Shown piece after piece: positions 12,110-40,135 of a stretch of DNA of 42,620 nt. The stretch covers positions 1-42,620 of the forward strand of contig DYFL01000018.1 of assembly GCA_020725195.1 (NCBI GenBank), given 5' to 3'. Under the pieces are notes generated by a model. It made no database searches. It was not told the DNA's origin and saw nothing but the letters and a program-made list of their open reading frames with translations. How positions within the stretch are numbered: position 1 is the stretch's first letter; each line of letters opens with the position of its first letter. The DNA is from Hydrogenophilus sp. GTDB taxonomy: Bacteria; Pseudomonadota; Gammaproteobacteria; Burkholderiales; Thiobacillaceae. Both the position numbers and the translations under genes were made by a program.

Positions 12110-13423
12110 TCAGCCCTTCAGCTCTTCCATGCGGATCAGCGTCACCCGGCCCTCGATGCTGCCCAGGGCCTCGATCCTCGCGATGGCGGCGTCGACGTTC
12201 TTCTCCTGGGTGACGTGGGTGAGCATGATGATGTCGGCCTGGTGCTCGCCCTCGGCCGGCTCCTTCTGCATCATGGCGTCGATGGAGATCGCGAGGTCGG
12301 CGAGGATGCGGGTGATGTCGGCCAGCACCCCGGGCCTGTCGGCGGCGCGCATGCGCAGGTAGTAGGCGGTCTCCACCTCGGCCATGGGCAGCACCGCCAG
12401 ATCGGTGAGCTGGTCGGGCTGGAAGGCGAGATGCGGCACGCGGTGGTGCGGGTCGGCCGTGTGCAGGCGGGTGACGTCGACCAGGTCGGCCACCACGGCC
12501 GAGGCGGTCGGCTCGGCGCCGGCGCCGGCGCCGTAGTAGAGGGTGGCACCGACGGCGTCGCCCTTCACCAGCACGGCGTTCATCACGCCTTCGACGTTGG
12601 CGATGAGGCGCCTGGCCGGGATCAGGGTCGGGTGCACCCTGAGCTCGATGCCGTTCTCCTTGCGCTTGGTGACGCCCAGGAGCTTGATCCGGTAGCCCAG
12701 CTCCTCGGCGTAGCGGATGTCTTCCTTGGTCAGCCTGGAGATGCCCTCGATATAGGCGGCGTCGAACTGCATGGGCACGCCGAAGGCGATGGCCGAGAGG
12801 ATGGTGAGCTTGTGCGCGGCGTCGATGCCCTCGATGTCGAAGGTCGGGTCGGCCTCGGCGTAGCCCTTGGCCTGCGCCTCGGCCAGCACCTCGGAGAAGG
12901 GGCTGCCCTTCTCGCGCATCTCGGAGAGGATGAAGTTGCAGGTGCCGTTGATGATGCCCGCCACCCACTCGATGCGGTTGGCGGTGAGGCCCTCGCGGAT
13001 GGCCTTGATGATGGGGATGCCGCCCGCCACCGCCGCCTCGAAGGCGACGATCACCCCTTTGGCCTGCGCCGCGGCGAAGATCTCGTTGCCGTGCTTGGCG
13101 ATCAGCGCCTTGTTAGCGGTGACCACGTGCTTGCCGTTGGCGATGGCCTTGAGCACGAGCTCCCGCGCGGGCGAGATGCCGCCGATGAGCTCCACGACGA
13201 TGTCGATGGCGGGGTTGTCCACCACCTCCTCGGGGTTGCCGGTGAGGCTGAGGTCGTCGCCGGCGTACTTGCGGGCCTTCTCCAGGTCGCGCACGGCGGC
13301 CTGGACGACGCGGATCTCGCGGCCGGCGCGGCGCGAGATCTCCTCCTTGTTGCGGCGCAGCACGGTGAGGGTGCCGCCGCCGACGGTGCCGAGGCCCAGC
13401 AGGCCGACGTGGATGGGTTTCAT
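12110..13423 (-). CDS. hom: Homoserine dehydrogenase
   Basis: A 437-residue monofunctional homoserine dehydrogenase, reducing aspartate semialdehyde to homoserine for Thr and Met synthesis. The N-terminal Rossmann motif is GLLGLGTVGGGTL. The central catalytic domain contains ANKALIAKHG, EAAVAGGIPIIKAIREGL and INGTCNFIL. A C-terminal ACT domain (about 350-437, RAADRPGVLADITRILADL) suggests threonine feedback. Start ATG 13423 is chosen because AGGA lies upstream and the Rossmann strand begins at once. Longer in-frame extension into the repeat-rich spacer is not credible. Confidence 0.96.
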   Translation of the reverse strand: MKPIHVGLLGLGTVGGGTLTVLRRNKEEISRRAGREIRVVQAAVRDLEKARKYAGDDLSLTGNPEEVVDNPAIDIVVELIGGISPARELVLKAIANGKHVVTANKALIAKHGNEIFAAAQAKGVIVAFEAAVAGGIPIIKAIREGLTANRIEWVAGIINGTCNFILSEMREKGSPFSEVLAEAQAKGYAEADPTFDIEGIDAAHKLTILSAIAFGVPMQFDAAYIEGISRLTKEDIRYAEELGYRIKLLGVTKRKENGIELRVHPTLIPARRLIANVEGVMNAVLVKGDAVGATLYYGAGAGAEPTASAVVADLVDVTRLHTADPHHRVPHLAFQPDQLTDLAVLPMAEVETAYYLRMRAADRPGVLADITRILADLAISIDAMMQKEPAEGEHQADIIMLTHVTQEKNVDAAIARIEALGSIEGRVTLIRMEELKG

Positions 13424-13436
13424 ATGAATTCCTGTG

Positions 13437-13567
13437 ATAAGTGAAGCGTGATAAGTGAAGCGTGAGAGGTGAAGCGTGAAGCGTGAAATGTGGATGGCAT
13501 GCGAAGCAGGGGTTTCACGTCTCACCCGATGCCGCGAAGCGGCGAGTCACTTTTCACGTTTCACATC
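13437..13567. repeat. GTGAAGCGTG tandem and inverted repeats between alaC and hom
   Basis: Two exact 14-bp units (ATAAGTGAAGCGTG, 13437-13464) are followed by a third variant unit and a 7-bp remainder (AAGCGTG). About 65 bp further on, inverted versions appear (TTCACGTCTCAC; CACTTTTCACGTTTCAC near 13550-13566). The block can fold into a long imperfect hairpin. It fills the space between the duplicated alaC tail and hom and has no coding signal. Confidence 0.65.
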
Positions 13568-13577
13568 GTTACAACAA

Positions 13578-13639
13578 CCCGTCCTTCCGGAACATGTCTC
13601 TCAGGCCCCGGATGGCCTGGCGGGTGCGATGTTCGTTTT
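13578..13639. repeat. 62-bp direct repeat, downstream copy of the alaC 3' end
   Basis: Identical over 62 bp to 13724-13785, which lies inside the alaC coding region. The copies are offset by 146 bp and enclose a palindromic element. Beyond the exact match the copies diverge (GGGCTGATC against GGGTTGTTG in gene sense). Confidence 0.95.
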
Positions 13640-13702
13640 GGCTCCGGCCGCCGCTGCGCGGCTTAACGCCGGCTTCGCCGGCATTAGCCTGCGCCGAAAC
13701 GA
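13633..13702 (-). repeat. Palindromic element copy A (downstream of alaC)
   Basis: A 70-bp element differing from copy B (26708-26777) at only four positions, two of them in hairpin loops. In gene sense it has imperfect ends (TCGTTTCGGC / AGCCAAAACGA), a 10-bp stem with triloop GAA, and a 5-bp stem GCCGC / GCGGC with triloop GCA. Exact inverted 13-mers flank it (13626-13638 and 13697-13709). They equal alaC sequence starting at the AAACGA inside its codons for ENEH. One open frame encodes AGVKPRSGGRSQN. Confidence 0.85.
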
Positions 13703-13711
13703 ACATCGCCG

Positions 13712-14899
13712 TCACTTGATCAGCCCGTCCTTCCGGAACATGTCTCTCAGGCCCCGGATGGCCTGGCGGGTGCGATGTTCGTTTTCAATCAGCGAAAACC
13801 GTACGTGGTCGTCGCCGTACTCGCCGAAGCCGACGCCGGGCGAGACCGCGACCTTGGCCTTCTCCAGCAGCAGCTTGGAGAACTCCAGCGATTTCAGATG
13901 GGCGTAGGGCTCCGGGATGGGCGTCCAGAGGAACATGGTGGCGCGCGGCGGCTCGACCTTCCAGCCCACGCCGTTCAGGCCCTTCACCAGGGCGTCGCGC
14001 CGCTTCCTGTACATCTCGCAGATGTCGGTCACGCATTCCTGGGGCCCTTCCAGGGCGGTGATGGCCGCCACCTGGATGGGGGTGAAGGTGCCGTAGTCGT
14101 GGTAGCTCTTGATGCGGGCGAGGGCGGCGCAGAGCGTGGCGTTGCCGACCATGAAGCCCACGCGCCAGCCGGGCATGTTGTAGCTCTTCGAGAGGGTGAA
14201 GAACTCCACCGCCACGTCCTTCGCCCCCGGCACCTGCATGATGGAGGGCGCCTGGTAGCCGTCGAAGACGATGTCGGCATAGGCGATGTCGTGCACCACC
14301 CAGATGCCGTATTCCTTGGCCATGGCCACCACCTTCTCGAAGAACCCGAGTTCCACGCACTGCGTGGTGGGGTTGGACGGGAAGTTGAGGATCAGCATCT
14401 TGGGCTTCGGCCAGTGGTTGCGGATCGCCGTCTCCATCTCCTCGAAGAAGTCCACCCCCGGCGTCATGGGGATGTGGCGGATGTCCGCACCGGCGATCAC
14501 CGGCCCGTAGATGTGGATGGGGTAGCTGGGGTTGGGCACCAGCACGATGTCGCCGCGGTCCAGGGTGGCCAGCGCCAGGTGGGCGATGCCCTCCTTGGAG
14601 CCGATGGTGGCGATGGCCTCCTTCTCCGGGTCGAGGTCCACGTCGTAGCGCGTCTTGTACCAGGTGGTGATGGCCTTCCTGAGCCGCGGGATGCCCTTGG
14701 ACATGGAGTAGCGGTGGGTGTCGCCGCGGCGGGCGGTCTCGATCAGCTTGTCGACGATGTGCGCCGGCGTGGGCTGGTCGGGGTTGCCCATGCCGAAGTC
14801 GATGATGTCCTCGCCGCGCCGCCGGGCGGCCATCTTGAGGTCGCCCGTGATGTTGAAGACATAGGGGGGCAGGCGCTTGATGCGGGGAAAATCGTCCAT
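13712..14899 (-). CDS. alaC: Alanine/2-oxoacid aminotransferase, AlaC type
   Basis: A 395-residue class I/II PLP aminotransferase. Signatures: [15 protein letters not shown] near the N-terminus, [17 protein letters not shown] (cofactor Asn and Pro), [13 protein letters not shown], and the Schiff-base lysine in [15 protein letters not shown] (Lys238). The closest assigned relative is AlaC, glutamate-pyruvate transaminase. In betaproteobacteria this gene commonly precedes hom-thrC, as here, sometimes annotated as a valine-pyruvate or putative aminotransferase. The last 23 codons are duplicated downstream with a palindromic element between the copies. The intact copy ends DGLIK-stop at 13712. 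Confidence 0.92.
13724..13785. repeat. 62-bp direct repeat, alaC-internal copy
   Basis: This is the copy that forms part of the alaC coding sequence (codons for [11 protein letters not shown] through RKDG). It is exactly repeated at 13578-13639. Its upstream edge coincides with AAAACGA, the same heptamer found at the element end and at the insertion point in pheS. Confidence 0.95.
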
Positions 14900-26707: not shown

Positions 26708-26771
26708 TCGTTTTGGCTTCGGCCGCCGCTTCGCGGCTTAACGCCGGCTACGCCGGCATTAGCCTCCGCCG

Positions 26772-26777
<6 letters not shown>
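26708..26777 (-). repeat. Palindromic element copy B (between pheS and pheT)
   Basis: A 70-bp element, 66 of 70 positions identical to copy A. In gene sense it runs from TCGTTTCGGCGGAGGCT to AGCCAAAACGA, with a 10-bp stem (triloop GTA) and a 5-bp stem (triloop GAA). Its upstream edge merges into a 51-bp perfect palindrome made from the pheS 3' end. One open frame encodes AGVKPRSGGRSQND. Confidence 0.85.
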
Positions 26778-27841
<1,064 letters not shown>

Positions 27842-34783: not shown

Positions 34784-36133
34784 ATGGACCTCCTCGGCGG
34801 CGAATTCCTCTCCCTGGACGAGGCCGCGGATTCCGGCGCCAAGCCGCGCACACGCCTGGAACGCACCTCGTCGCGCGCCCATGCGGCCATCGAGTTCACC
34901 CTGCGGTGGACCTCGGAATGCGGGGTATCGGCGGAGGCTGACATGGGCGCAGACCCTGTCAAGCCGCAACGCGGCGGCCGGAGCCAAACCGTCCACCACA
35001 CCGACATCCACGTCGCCGGCCAGTTGAACCTCTGGCGGGACTACTTCATCCCGGAGCTGGAGGCGGCGGTGATGGGCCGGCCGGTCGGGCACGGCGAGAC
35101 CGCCTCCTTCCGGCCCGGCTCTCTGGTGCCCCCCCACGCGCCCGGCGACTGCCTGGAGATCGACTCCATGCGCTTCAACCGCACCTACCGGCCGTGCGCC
35201 TTCGTCGCGCCCCGGGCCGGCCGCTTCTACCCGCGGGGTTGCATCGCCGGGGTGAAGGGCATCGTCTCCGAGGACATGACGCCTTTGCGCATAGGCCGCG
35301 TGGACGGCGAGCGGCTCACCGTGGACCTCAACCATCCCCTCTCGGAGCGGCCGCTCGAGCTGACGGCCCGCATCCTGGACGCCTGGCAGGCCGGCGCCGA
35401 GCACGGCGGCCGCGCCCACGACGTGGCCGGTCTCGTCGCCGGCCACGGCCCGGGCATGCAGGCGCGCTGGCGCGGGGAAGCCACCGACTTCTTCTCGGAC
35501 TCGCCCTACCGGCGGGGCGATCCCCTGCCGGACCCGGAGTTCTACGCCAAGGCCCGCTTCGCGGACCACCTCGACCGCACGGCCCTGCGGCAGGTGGCGA
35601 AGCTCTACGGCCGGCTGCTGCCCAGGGGCGCGCGGGTGCTGGACCTGATGGCGAGCTGGAGGTCGCATCTCGACGCCGCCGAGCCCGCCCGCGTCGCGGG
35701 CCTGGGGCTCAACGCCGCGGAGCTGGCGGCCAACCCGCTGCTCGACGAGCGCGCCGTGCACGACCTCAACGCCGAGCCGCGCCTGCCCTTCGCCGACGCG
35801 AGCTTCGACGCCGCCGTCTGCACGGTCTCCGTCGAGTACCTCACCCAGCCCGTGGAGGTCTTCCGCGAGGTCGCCCGGGTGCTCAGGCCCGGCGGCCGCT
35901 TCGTGCTCGCCTTCTCCAACCGCTGCTTCCCGCCCAAGGCGGTGCAGGTCTGGGAGGAGGCACACCCCTTCGAGCGCCCTGGCCTGGTGCTGGAATATTT
36001 CCACCGCGCCGGCGGCTACGCCAAGCTCGCCACCTTCTCCCTGGCGGGCCTGCCCCGCCCGGCCGACGACAAGTACGCGGACCGCATGCCCTATTCCGAC
36101 CCCATCCATGCGGTGTGGGGGGAGAAGGCGTGA
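34784..36133 (+). CDS. SAM-dependent methyltransferase with N-terminal SlyD/FKBP-like domain
   Basis: Up to 449 residues. Residues 75-205 resemble an FKBP/SlyD-type module ([13 protein letters not shown], then [22 protein letters not shown], the SlyD-like VDxNHPLxxxxL block). Residues 235-449 form a class I methyltransferase ([14 protein letters not shown] motif [40 protein letters not shown]). Substrate unknown. The first about 75 residues lack recognisable family sequence and include palindromic element copy C. An internal ATG at 34943, with GGAGG from the element 5 nt upstream, may be the real start, giving 396 residues. It overlaps acyP by GTGA. Confidence 0.75.
34923..34992 (+). repeat. 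Palindromic element copy C (N-terminus of the methyltransferase gene)
   Basis: A 70-bp element aligned gaplessly to copies A and B, sharing CGGCGGAGGCT, the GCCGC-loop-GCGGC hairpin (loop AAC) and GGAGCCAAA. Its long stem pairs 8 of 10 positions with different bases from A/B. The flanks carry inverted GGTGGAC (34905-34911) and GTCCACC (34991-34997). The frame encodes [13 protein letters not shown]. It brings in a GGAGG and ATG suitable for starting translation. Confidence 0.8.
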
Positions 36134-37413: not shown

Positions 37414-37504
37414 GGCGACCGGGGCGGGCCGCGGCGATCATGACCCGCAGCGGCGCGGATTGCCTGGATCGCCCAGGCCGCATGAACGGCGCCGCAGGGA
37501 CGGC

Positions 37505-40135
37505 ATGACCATCGCCCCGCAGACCCTGGCGCGCTGGCGGGCGGAGCTCGCCCGGGCCCGCGAGGCCCTGATCCGGGACTACGCCGCCGGGCGCCGCGCC
37601 AGCCCCCTCCTGGCGGGCCTGAGCCGCAGCACGGACCGGCTGCTCGGACAGATCTGGCAGACCCTGGAGCTGCCGCCGCACGCCGCCCTGGTGGCGGTGG
37701 GCGGCTACGGGCGCGGCGAGCTCTACCCGCAGTCCGACGTCGACGTCCTGATCCTGCTCGACGACGCCCTCCCGCAGACCGAGCGCGCGCGCTTCGAACC
37801 GCTGATCGGCCTGCTCTGGGACGTGGGCCTGCCCATCGGCCACAGCGTGCGCAGCCTCGCCGAGTGTCTGAGCGAGGGCGCATGCGACGTCACCGTCCAG
37901 ACCAACCTCATGGAAGGCCGTCTGGTCGCCGGGGAGCGCGGGCTCTACGAGCGGCTGTGCCAGGCGCTGCGCGCCGCCCTGGATCCGCCGGCCTTCTTCG
38001 AGGCCAAACGGCTGGAGCAGCAGAACCGCCACGGCCGCTTCGCCGACCGGGCCCTGCTGCTCGAACCCAACATCAAGGAGAGCCCGGGGGGGCTGAGGGA
38101 CATCCAGACCGCGCTCTGGGTCGCCCAGGCGGCGGGCCTGCCGGGCAGCCTGGCGGGGCTCGCCCGCCGGGGCCTGCTCGCCCCCGAGGAGGCGCGGCGC
38201 ATCGCCGGCCGGGTGCGTTTCCTGAGCGCCCTGCGCATCCGCCTGCATCTCGAGGCGAAGCGGCGCGAGGACCGCCTGCTGTTCGAGTTCCAGGAGGCCC
38301 TGGCCGCGCAGATGGGCTACGCCCCGCAGGGCGGCAAGCGGGCCTCCGAGCGGCTGATGCAGCACTACTACCAGGCCGCCCGGGAGGTGAGCCTCGCCAA
38401 CGAGATCCTGCTCGAGGCCCTGCGCCAGCACATCAGGCCGCCGGGCGAGGCCGAGCCCCTGCCCGGGTTCGCGGGCTTCCTGCGCCGCGGCGGCCGGCTG
38501 GACATCGCCGACGAGGCGTTGTTCCGGCAGCGCCCCGAGGCGATCTTCGAGAGCTTCCTCGTCCTCGGCCGCGAGCCCGAGCTGCAGGGGTTCGGCCCGC
38601 TCGCCCTGCGCGCCCTCTGGCGGGCCGGGCGCCGCATCGACGCGGCCTTCAGACAGGACGCCGGCAACTGGGCGCGCTTCCGGGCGATCCTCGGGGCGGA
38701 GCGGGGCGTCACCCACAACCTGCGGCTCATGCACCGCCTGGGGCTGCTGGGGCGCTACATCCCGGCCTTCGGCCGGGTGACCGGGCAGCTCCAGCACGAC
38801 CTGGTGCACATCTATCCCGTCGACGAGCACATCCTCATGGTGCTCAGGAACCTGCGCCGCCTGGCCCTGCCCCAGTTCGCCCACGAGTTCCCGCTGGCGC
38901 ACCGCCTGATGCAGGACTTCGGGCGCCACGACCTGCTCTACCTCGCCGCCCTCTTCCACGACATCGCCAAGGGGCGCGGCGGCGACCACTCCACCCTGGG
39001 CGCCGCCGACGCCCGGCGCTTCGGCATGCGCCACGGCCTGCCGCGCGCGGACACCGCGCTCGTCGCATGGCTGGTGCAGGAGCACCTCAGCCTGTCGCGC
39101 ACGGCGCAGAAGGAGGACCTCTCCGACCCCGAGGTCATCGCCCGCTTCGCCGCCCGCTGCGGCACGGTCGAGCGGCTCACCGCCCTGTACCTGCTCACCG
39201 TCGCGGACATCCGCGGCACCAACCCGCGGATCTGGAACGCCTGGAAGGAGAAGCTGCTGCGCGAGCTCTACCTCGCCAGCCGGCGCGTGCTGGAAGGCGG
39301 CCGGCCGGAAGCCGACAGCGTGGAGGCGAAGAAGGAACAGGCCCGGGCCGCGCTGCGCCTCTACGCCTTCGAGCCCGGCGCCGAGGACGCCCTCTGGGCC
39401 CGGCTCGACGAGGTCTATTTCCTGCGCCTGGAGGCCCAGGAGATCGCCTGGCAGGCGCGGCGCCTGCTGCCGCTCCTGGGCCGGGAAAACGGAGTTTCGG
39501 TGAAGGCTCACATCGGCGAAGCCGATGTCAAGCCGCGAAGCGGCGGCCGGACCGTCGTGCGCGCCCGCCTCGCCCCCATCGGCGAGGGCCTGGAGGTGAT
39601 GGTCTACGCCCCGGACGAGCCCGGGCTCTTCGCCCGCATCTGCGGCTTCTTCGCCGGCCTGCGCTACTCGGTGCTGGAGGCCAGGATCCACACCACCCGC
39701 GACGGCTGCGCCCTCGACAGCTTCCTGGTCATGGACGAGGCGGACCGCGCCGTGCCCTACCGGGACCTGCTCAGCTACATCGAGTACGAACTCGCGGCCA
39801 TCCTCAAGGCGAGGCGCCCGCTCACCGAGCTCGGCGGCGGACGCCTGCCGCGCCAGCTCAAGCACTTCCCCATCGAGCCGGAGGTCAGCCTCGCCGCCAG
39901 CGAGGGCGGCCGCGGCCACGTGCTCTCGCTGGCCGCCGGCGACCGCCCCGGCCTGCTCTACGACGTGGCCCGGGTGCTGGCCCGGCACGAGGCCAGCGTC
40001 ACCAGCGCCAAGATCCACACCCTGGGCGCCCGCGCCGAGGACGTCTTCGTCCTGAGCGGCGAGGCGCTCGCCGAGCCCGAGGTGCGCCTCGCGCTGGAGC
40101 AGGACCTGCTGGGGATGCTGAGGCAGGGGGGGTAG
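37505..40135 (+). CDS. glnD: Bifunctional uridylyltransferase/uridylyl-removing enzyme GlnD, with in-frame element insertion
   Basis: An 876-residue nitrogen sensor that uridylylates PII proteins when glutamine is low and reverses this when it is high. In order: nucleotidyltransferase (GGYGRGELYPQSDVDVLILL, about 66-85), helical GlnD linker, HD domain (LFHDIAKGRGGDHSTLGAADA, about 480-500), and two ACT domains (VMVYAPDEPGLFARICGFF, about 697; LAAGDRPGLLYDVARVLARH, about 805). Palindromic element copy D is inserted in frame at about residues 663-683, between the HD and first ACT domains. ATG 37505 is preferred over upstream codons, which read as arginine-rich spacer. Confidence 0.96.
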   Translation: MTIAPQTLARWRAELARAREALIRDYAAGRRASPLLAGLSRSTDRLLGQIWQTLELPPHAALVAVGGYGRGELYPQSDVDVLILLDDALPQTERARFEPLIGLLWDVGLPIGHSVRSLAECLSEGACDVTVQTNLMEGRLVAGERGLYERLCQALRAALDPPAFFEAKRLEQQNRHGRFADRALLLEPNIKESPGGLRDIQTALWVAQAAGLPGSLAGLARRGLLAPEEARRIAGRVRFLSALRIRLHLEAKRREDRLLFEFQEALAAQMGYAPQGGKRASERLMQHYYQAAREVSLANEILLEALRQHIRPPGEAEPLPGFAGFLRRGGRLDIADEALFRQRPEAIFESFLVLGREPELQGFGPLALRALWRAGRRIDAAFRQDAGNWARFRAILGAERGVTHNLRLMHRLGLLGRYIPAFGRVTGQLQHDLVHIYPVDEHILMVLRNLRRLALPQFAHEFPLAHRLMQDFGRHDLLYLAALFHDIAKGRGGDHSTLGAADARRFGMRHGLPRADTALVAWLVQEHLSLSRTAQKEDLSDPEVIARFAARCGTVERLTALYLLTVADIRGTNPRIWNAWKEKLLRELYLASRRVLEGGRPEADSVEAKKEQARAALRLYAFEPGAEDALWARLDEVYFLRLEAQEIAWQARRLLPLLGRENGVSVKAHIGEADVKPRSGGRTVVRARLAPIGEGLEVMVYAPDEPGLFARICGFFAGLRYSVLEARIHTTRDGCALDSFLVMDEADRAVPYRDLLSYIEYELAAILKARRPLTELGGGRLPRQLKHFPIEPEVSLAASEGGRGHVLSLAAGDRPGLLYDVARVLARHEASVTSAKIHTLGARAEDVFVLSGEALAEPEVRLALEQDLLGMLRQGG
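39492..39555 (+). repeat. Palindromic element copy D (in frame within glnD)
   Basis: It aligns without gaps to the other copies over the central part. The long stem is ACATCGGC-GAA-GCCGATGT, perfectly paired but with different bases from A/B. The second hairpin GCCGC-GAA-GCGGC is identical to copy B. The flank GAAAACGGAGTTTCGG contains a short inverted AAAC/GTTT. The right end diverges after GGCCGGA. It encodes VKAHIGEADVKPRSGGRT. Confidence 0.8.

Follow-up and report, generated by a model that had tools for sequence, protein, structure and literature searches.

The duplicated alaC 3' end of a Hydrogenophilus contig as one case of a putative mobile palindromic unit that carries gene ends

The 3' end of alaC is present twice on this Hydrogenophilus contig, and sequence comparison across related genomes indicates that the duplication exemplifies a gene-end-carrying element of widespread occurrence and stereotyped form. 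Our favored explanation, which we hold with moderate confidence, is that it resulted from one insertion of a ~146-bp mobile unit composed of a gene end, an inverted copy of the insertion point, and a palindromic element (E), such that the carried end now works and the old end lies stranded beyond E. Read from sequence, the case for such a unit comprises its layout and the recurrence of that layout, its length, its tandem arrays, its return to the same codons, and the synonymous divergence of gene ends at many sites.

The alaC 3' end is duplicated around a palindromic element

The window, by which we mean the whole stretch of 42,620 nucleotides that was analyzed, contains the following features at the alaC locus:

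13712-14899, minus strand: alaC, intact; from G^AAAAC on, its end is the carried gene end (ORF and alanine transaminase family)
13724-13785, minus strand: A1, the gene end that is carried; its 62 bp match the stranded copy exactly (sequence repeat)
13772-13784, minus strand: X, the 13 nt at the insertion point, where the carried end starts
13710-13723, minus strand: final alaC codons, including the stop codon (13712-13714), and a short spacer preceding the inverted copy (sequence)
13697-13709, minus strand: X', inverted copy of X (13 of 13 positions complementary)
13637-13699, plus strand: element E, a 63-bp three-way-junction palindrome (covariance model R1, 90.5 bits; fold; pair counts)
13578-13639, minus strand: stranded gene end A0, the displaced copy of the alaC 3' end (sequence repeat)
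13569-13715, minus strand: predicted ORF that runs through E into A0, 48 residues from a GTG or 45 from an inner ATG (ORF call only)

The 62-bp direct repeat formed by A0 and A1 (offset 146 bp, by sequence comparison within the window) is exact and is not due to chance. An earlier note on this DNA had described the last 23 codons of alaC as copied exactly; the 62 bp and the offset hold to the base, but exact identity is lost partway through codon 21 of this tail, and the last residues differ (...KDGLIK* in the gene, ...KDGLL* in the stranded copy). Beyond the identity, the two ends show one synonymous and three nonsynonymous codon differences. A locus with a 62-bp identity and so few codon differences carries no information on import, and therefore import and local copying cannot be told apart from these sequences, which are too alike.

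Other parts of the earlier description were borne out. Exact inverted 13-mers flank the element (13697-13709 and 13772-13784; pairing score 13, distance 85), and a further, direct copy of the 13-mer at 13772-13784 lies at the other edge of E (13626-13638). The heptamer AAAACGA, proposed as the boundary of the copied segment, starts both gene-end copies in gene orientation. alaC is indeed kept intact, scoring 775.5 bits against the NCBIfam family 'alanine transaminase' (cut-off, 647), and a second ORF that ends in the alaC C-terminus is present, as listed above. At 13434-13564, between the stranded alaC end and hom, lie short GTGAAGC/TTTCACG-type repeats with a hairpin, which belong to a second, unrelated repeat family.

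E is a high-copy palindromic family

A DNA search with the alaC region gave 43 matches in the genome that contains the window (G000); except for those of the window itself, these matches cover the segment that separates the repeats. With a covariance model built from 18 copies, the number of E matches in G000 was 88; the alaC copy has the top score in the genome and was among the copies from which the model was built. The model also detected E in 24 of 40 relatives (G000 not counted) and, at a stricter limit, in 29 out of 120 genomes from the order, a count that includes G000 and G002. Stretches from named records with an exact pattern match, 29 in number, all came from Betaproteobacteria or from bins labelled only Proteobacteria. 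Plasmid and phage collections contained no match to positions 13630-13720 of the window, and an Rfam scan of 13400-14000 returned nothing at gathering score (top hit, 19.9 bits; gathering score of that family, 197).

On the gene-reading strand, E together with X' and X is predicted to fold into a three-way junction with a 13-bp terminal stem (-36.2 kcal/mol, z -6.7); the predicted fold of E alone is unremarkable (z -1.5). Across the 18 copies, 94.4% of stem pair cells are formed and 16 cells carry double changes, compared with 4.4 in shuffles, the structure having been derived from the same alignment that was used for these counts. The number of stem pair types in the 18 copies is not above that in shuffles (10 and 10.1, respectively).

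Two variants of the family were seen. At L055-L068 of G000, a copy of E lies inside a ~237-bp repeat with inverted ends (ACGCCAACCCATAAGTT type), of which there are 14 copies with identical E; this repeat is apparently a MITE that was amplified with E in it. A subfamily of E (G000 C42:18244, L140, L157, and L161) has a fixed 5' hairpin (CAACA..GCCGC..GCGGCTTGTTGCGG type) that replaces the target-derived inverted copy.

A stereotyped unit recurs near gene ends

Read in the direction of the gene, many copies show a common order: the gene, AAAAC-X, the remaining gene end with its stop codon, a spacer, X', GTTTCGG-E-GCC, and then AAAAC-X again with the second gene end. The unit is ~146 bp long, with ~70 nt derived from the end of the gene in which it sits, then the insertion-point sequence in inverted form (mostly 11-15 nt), and then the 63-bp E; it occurs singly or in tandem. 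Insertion sites resemble G^A(A/G)AAC, the unit being placed ahead of the first A, and are found near the gene end or, less often, the gene start. In agreement with the earlier note, the duplication belongs to the element and is not the product of cut-and-paste insertion with a short target duplication.

From 8 genomes, 148 sites were analyzed for layout: 79 of the 88 G000 matches and 69 from the others. Of these sites, 133 are unique. The X'-X pairing score reached at least 9 at 55 of the 133 unique sites, compared with 4 of 133 when the flanks were shuffled. In a later set of 17 genomes from other families (64 matches), 29 of 59 unique sites reached the same score, compared with 1 of 59 after shuffling, and 87 was the most frequent distance. 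Distances between E and X fall into classes of 8 nt (the mini-hairpin AAAC-GNA-GTTT), 18-48 nt (some short hairpins), and 72-96 nt (the main class), while longer distances come mostly from array neighbors. X' matches the X of its own unit better than the next copy at 20 of 46 sites, worse at 5, and equally well at 21. A larger version of the unit with a transposase within the loop was not found in the 0.7-1.5 kb beside the sites, and six long-range X matches turned out to be array neighbors.

Length statistics were taken from 21 coding units picked by hand. On average, E lies 84 nt from the insertion point (sd 5.4), and the tail, from the insertion codon to the stop, measures 55 nt (sd 12.9). 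Because these two quantities are correlated (Spearman 0.66, p 0.001), the length of the carried piece is narrow yet gene-dependent, and no pure ruler sets it. Next to an Xer-like gene on C42 of G000, a copy of E is located past the stop codon. Rescue is not required there, yet a 65-bp duplication is present; since the extra copy is bounded by an E-like end, this duplication may be an array too.

E also occurs in other forms, and the window contains the following further copies and the genes that they touch:

26712-26774, plus strand: second copy of E, located at the 3' end of pheS (covariance model)
26772-26822, no strand: perfect 25-nt fold-back (arms 26772-26796 and 26798-26822) that contains the pheS stop codon
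26789-27808, minus strand: pheS, which terminates within the fold-back (ORF; pheS family above cut-off)
34926-34988, minus strand: fourth E copy of the window, without a clear inverted copy (covariance model)
39495-39557, minus strand: E copy in frame within glnD (ORF 37460-40135, plus strand), with ~20 residues added (covariance model; glnD family above cut-off)

Tail copies are those of the alaC type and are frequently tandem: recR and a motA-like gene of G000 have 2 E and 3 gene ends, a G044 array contains 5 E, and arrays of G010 contain, among the matches listed, 4 E at acs and 3 at accB. In hairpin copies, X and X' are almost adjacent; pheS in the window is an example, with a seemingly decayed stranded piece downstream. 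Mini copies are read through in frame within genes, including glnD in the window and lysS and bioB in G002, and encode a peptide like ENEVSAQANxGEAxVKPxxxGGRSQN.

Units occupy the same codons in different genera

In G013, a unit with its own sequence is present at the same GAAAAC codon of alaC. Ten other alaC loci (L100-L102 and L104-L110), inspected by eye, have no unit within ~320 bases past this codon. The earlier note looked to relatives with the duplication and no element as evidence against its reading; none was seen in the 12 loci read of 18 alaC loci.

Other genes are occupied more widely. Units are present at ccmE in five members of the family (G000, G002, G009, G013, and G021) and in L205 (and, judged by eye, in decayed form in G018), at argF in G000, G010, L187, and L206, at ftsW in G000, G010, G013, and L200, at recR and the motA-like gene in each of G000, G010, and G013, at dapD in G010, G103, and G113, and at metK in G021 and G059. 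At the 5' end of an acetyl-CoA acetyltransferase gene (L185, L204, L208, and L209), it is the ribosome site, start codon, and N-terminus that the carried piece supplies. tRNA genes are hit as well: one unit (L129) has an intact tRNA-Leu gene on its carried side and another (L161) an intact tRNA-Ser gene on its stranded side, and ARAGORN gave no confirmation of a tRNA-Ser-like stretch on C7 of G000.

Gene names rest on NCBIfam matches above cut-off, at one locus each, for recR, argF, accB, dapD, metK, pheS, glnD, bioB, and the motA-like gene (flagellar motor protein); for ftsW, acs, ttcA, lysS, and a gapA-like gene, whose ORFs are truncated, the best family was below cut-off, and the acetyl-CoA acetyltransferase assignment was made on L209. 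Hit genes also include ones that we take to be dapB and a gene for a CBS protein.

Carried and stranded ends often differ synonymously

A duplicated end (at least 31 of 48 positions alike, at distances of 60-100) was present at 46 of the 133 unique sites, and at 40 of these 46 the ends could be read to a stop codon in a fixed phase; the six left out include both motA-like units of G000. The 40 sites contain 133 synonymous and 71 nonsynonymous codon differences, where 49.6 synonymous differences were expected (binomial p 7e-35, a value that ignores the non-independence of array units, which have a common history). Seven sites whose ends are decayed, shifted, or non-coding (C70, C80, C41, C18:5541, L149, L095, and L145) account for 56 of the 71 nonsynonymous changes; this grouping was made after the fact. 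Synonymous and nonsynonymous differences in clean cases number 12 and 0 at ccmE of G002, 10 and 1 at argF of G000, 8 and 0 at acs of G010, and 6 and 0 at accB of G010. The excess is weaker in the later set, with 30 synonymous differences, 38 nonsynonymous differences, and 16 synonymous expected, decayed sites counted in.

The ends at ccmE illustrate the range of divergence. Over 54 nt, they differ at 9 positions in G002, 10 in G009, and 10 in G021, approximately as native ends of different genera do, and they are nearly or fully identical in G000 (1 difference) and G010 (0); G013 was left out of this comparison because of a shift. A copy that was never used should lose its peptide and its stop codon, and therefore, at many sites, either the carried end would have arrived from a diverged lineage or both ends would once have been in service. 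Plain target duplication at all sites was dropped as an explanation, given that stranded ends retain their peptide, and was kept for the birth of units.

An array of G010 contains a unit with another gene's end, and ccmE of G010 is duplicated without E

Among the matches listed for G010, the ttcA array contains a unit with the end of the motA-like gene (98.9% identity over 88 nt by BLAST), and this unit is 87.5% identical to one in a third array. Since these arrays already hold E, recombination between E copies is a possible source, and the ectopic unit could have been placed in this way.

A duplication without the element, which the earlier note would have taken as evidence against its reading, was found at a gene other than alaC. 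ccmE of G010 (L250) has a tandem duplication with a period of 137 at the same codon, exact for 85 nt and followed by a small shift; E is absent, and a palindrome of the GTAGGAGCGGC type sits in its place. This duplication is consistent with a hot spot at the codon or with loss of E.

Candidate enzymes for the movement of E

No transposase linked to E was found in the comparison of Y1_Tnp matches across genomes or in the Y1 stretches read. G000 contains two Y1_Tnp genes, Y1_Tnp has no match in G013 (46 E) or G018 (22 E, 92% complete), and G003 is free of E, yet has four Y1_Tnp matches. The best score for E near Y1 genes was 16.8 bits (14 and 12 Y1 stretches, overlapping in part and a subset of all matches), and the consensus of the 18 E copies lacks a GTAG-type tetranucleotide. 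RAYT as the mover of E was thus considered unsupported, given E-rich genomes without Y1_Tnp and no E linked to the Y1 stretches read. A reverse transcriptase was rejected as well, the sole RVT_1 match in G000 being a group II intron maturase with no link to E seen. Matches to the integron integrase in G000 consisted of four pieces, all below cut-off, as in all 14 controls. The orientation of E in G002 showed no replichore bias (32 versus 24 of 56 copies, with the terminus assumed near 1.36 Mb).

Possible origin and spread of the units

We infer that E is probably a single-strand, REP-like element, born by long copying and fold-back, that then travelled with the gene end. At birth, insertion of E would involve a copying step in which ~70 nt of the target are duplicated and the copy folds back for ~13 nt. 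Unit and gene end would then move together between lineages, either as single-strand DNA whose inverted copy pairs with the matching gene site or by homologous recombination, and units would persist mostly at gene ends, where the carried piece suffices for rescue of the gene. It is possible, though we lean against it, that the unit is a homing element able to remain harmless without a gene of its own, in which a recoded host gene end is combined with an 11-15 nt guide, entry occurs at the same codon in new strains, and the gene is rescued on entry. If this were true, the unit would be a natural ~146-bp analogue of a rescue-type gene drive in bacteria.

Alternatively, each duplication could result from a local template switch during replication or repair at an E already present in a GAAAAC codon, fixed since the gene was restored, which generalizes what the earlier note had suggested for alaC. 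The perfect 25-nt hairpin at pheS and the 13-bp stem of the three-way junction are expected traces of self-primed copying, the two ends of alaC match over 62 bp, and fold-back copying is the simplest route to the inverted 13-mer, such that an origin of this kind is possible; a single local accident at alaC, however, is unsupported because the layout recurs at dozens of sites and at the same codons across genera, with ends that often differ synonymously. Local switching would require dozens of complex events per genome and would leave stranded ends free to decay, yet many retain peptide and stop codon with synonymous differences, and a unit with another gene's end is found in the ttcA array. 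We consider local switching unlikely as a general explanation. We give still less weight to a scheme without dedicated mobility, in which gene end and E circularize and reinsert by homologous recombination between direct repeats or E copies, as for displaced rhs tips: stretches of 60-75 bp are short for efficient recombination, and the scheme leaves unexplained the inverted copy that fits its own unit, the fixed point before AAAAC, and the first insertions of E. It does account for tandem arrays, displaced ends, and ectopic units that were seen, among the matches listed, only in arrays already holding E, and the rhs model gives a similar picture (PMC2935791, in part).

That E is a standard REP/RAYT family, spread by a Y1 HUH transposase with the gene-end copies incidental, would fit a short, high-copy, hairpin-forming sequence in a genome with two Y1_Tnp genes. 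The distribution of Y1_Tnp (missing in G013 and G018, fourfold in E-free G003), the low E scores in the Y1 stretches read, and the lack of GTAG in the consensus argue against it, and we regard it as improbable. An assembly artefact could be suspected in G000, which consists of 108 contigs, but the same layout is present in public bins that were assembled separately and in G002, whose sequence is one contig of 2.72 Mb, and we give this explanation practically no credence.

Relation of E units to known elements

Integron cassettes are likewise tandem short units with a structured palindrome at the end; E units, in contrast, are gene ends, and no integron integrase exceeded the cut-off in G000. 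Phages and islands that reside in gene 3' ends also bring a replacement gene end, whereas the E unit is ~146 bp long, has no integrase, and carries a different end for each gene. Long variable direct repeats are a feature of IS1634, and single-strand transposition of the IS200/IS605 type shows an orientation bias with replication. Engineered IS608, a member of the latter group, has been directed to 12/17-nt targets through longer pairing (PMC5934647, in part), and recognition of the target by base pairing with the element, over a length close to that of the inverted copy, may be a point of analogy with E. The matching sequence here differs in being natural, gene-specific, and downstream of the insertion point; moreover, no TnpA was found with E, nor was a replichore bias.

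REP/REPIN sequences with their RAYTs share with E a short, high-copy, hairpin-forming, and non-coding nature, and a single-strand logic is plausible. E units, unlike these, carry ~70 nt of the target gene end, have no linked Y1 gene in the stretches read, and lack GTAG, a REP feature (PMC8266576, in part). Rickettsia palindromic elements, compared here by description only, also insert in frame within protein genes (PMC10969869, in part), as E does in glnD, lysS, and bioB; a copy of the host gene end goes unmentioned in the portion of that paper on which we draw. In rhs genes, a new C-terminal piece displaces the old one, which is stranded downstream in arrays, and the pieces are alternatives of one gene family (PMC2935791, in part), whereas the piece in an E unit is tiny, usually encodes the same peptide, and is found at unrelated housekeeping genes with one palindrome family. 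Among the titles and abstracts listed in searches of openly licensed papers, none described such gene-end-carrying units.

If our favored reading is correct, the units would show how a non-coding palindrome can sit harmlessly in housekeeping genes (pheS, recR, ftsW, and a tRNA gene), and they would leave a record in the form of stacked displaced gene ends, each functional until the next unit came. They would also allow a test of whether long base-pairing guides direct single-strand insertion in nature, as they do in engineered IS608. In addition, annotation pipelines may label stranded ends and read-through ORFs as small genes.
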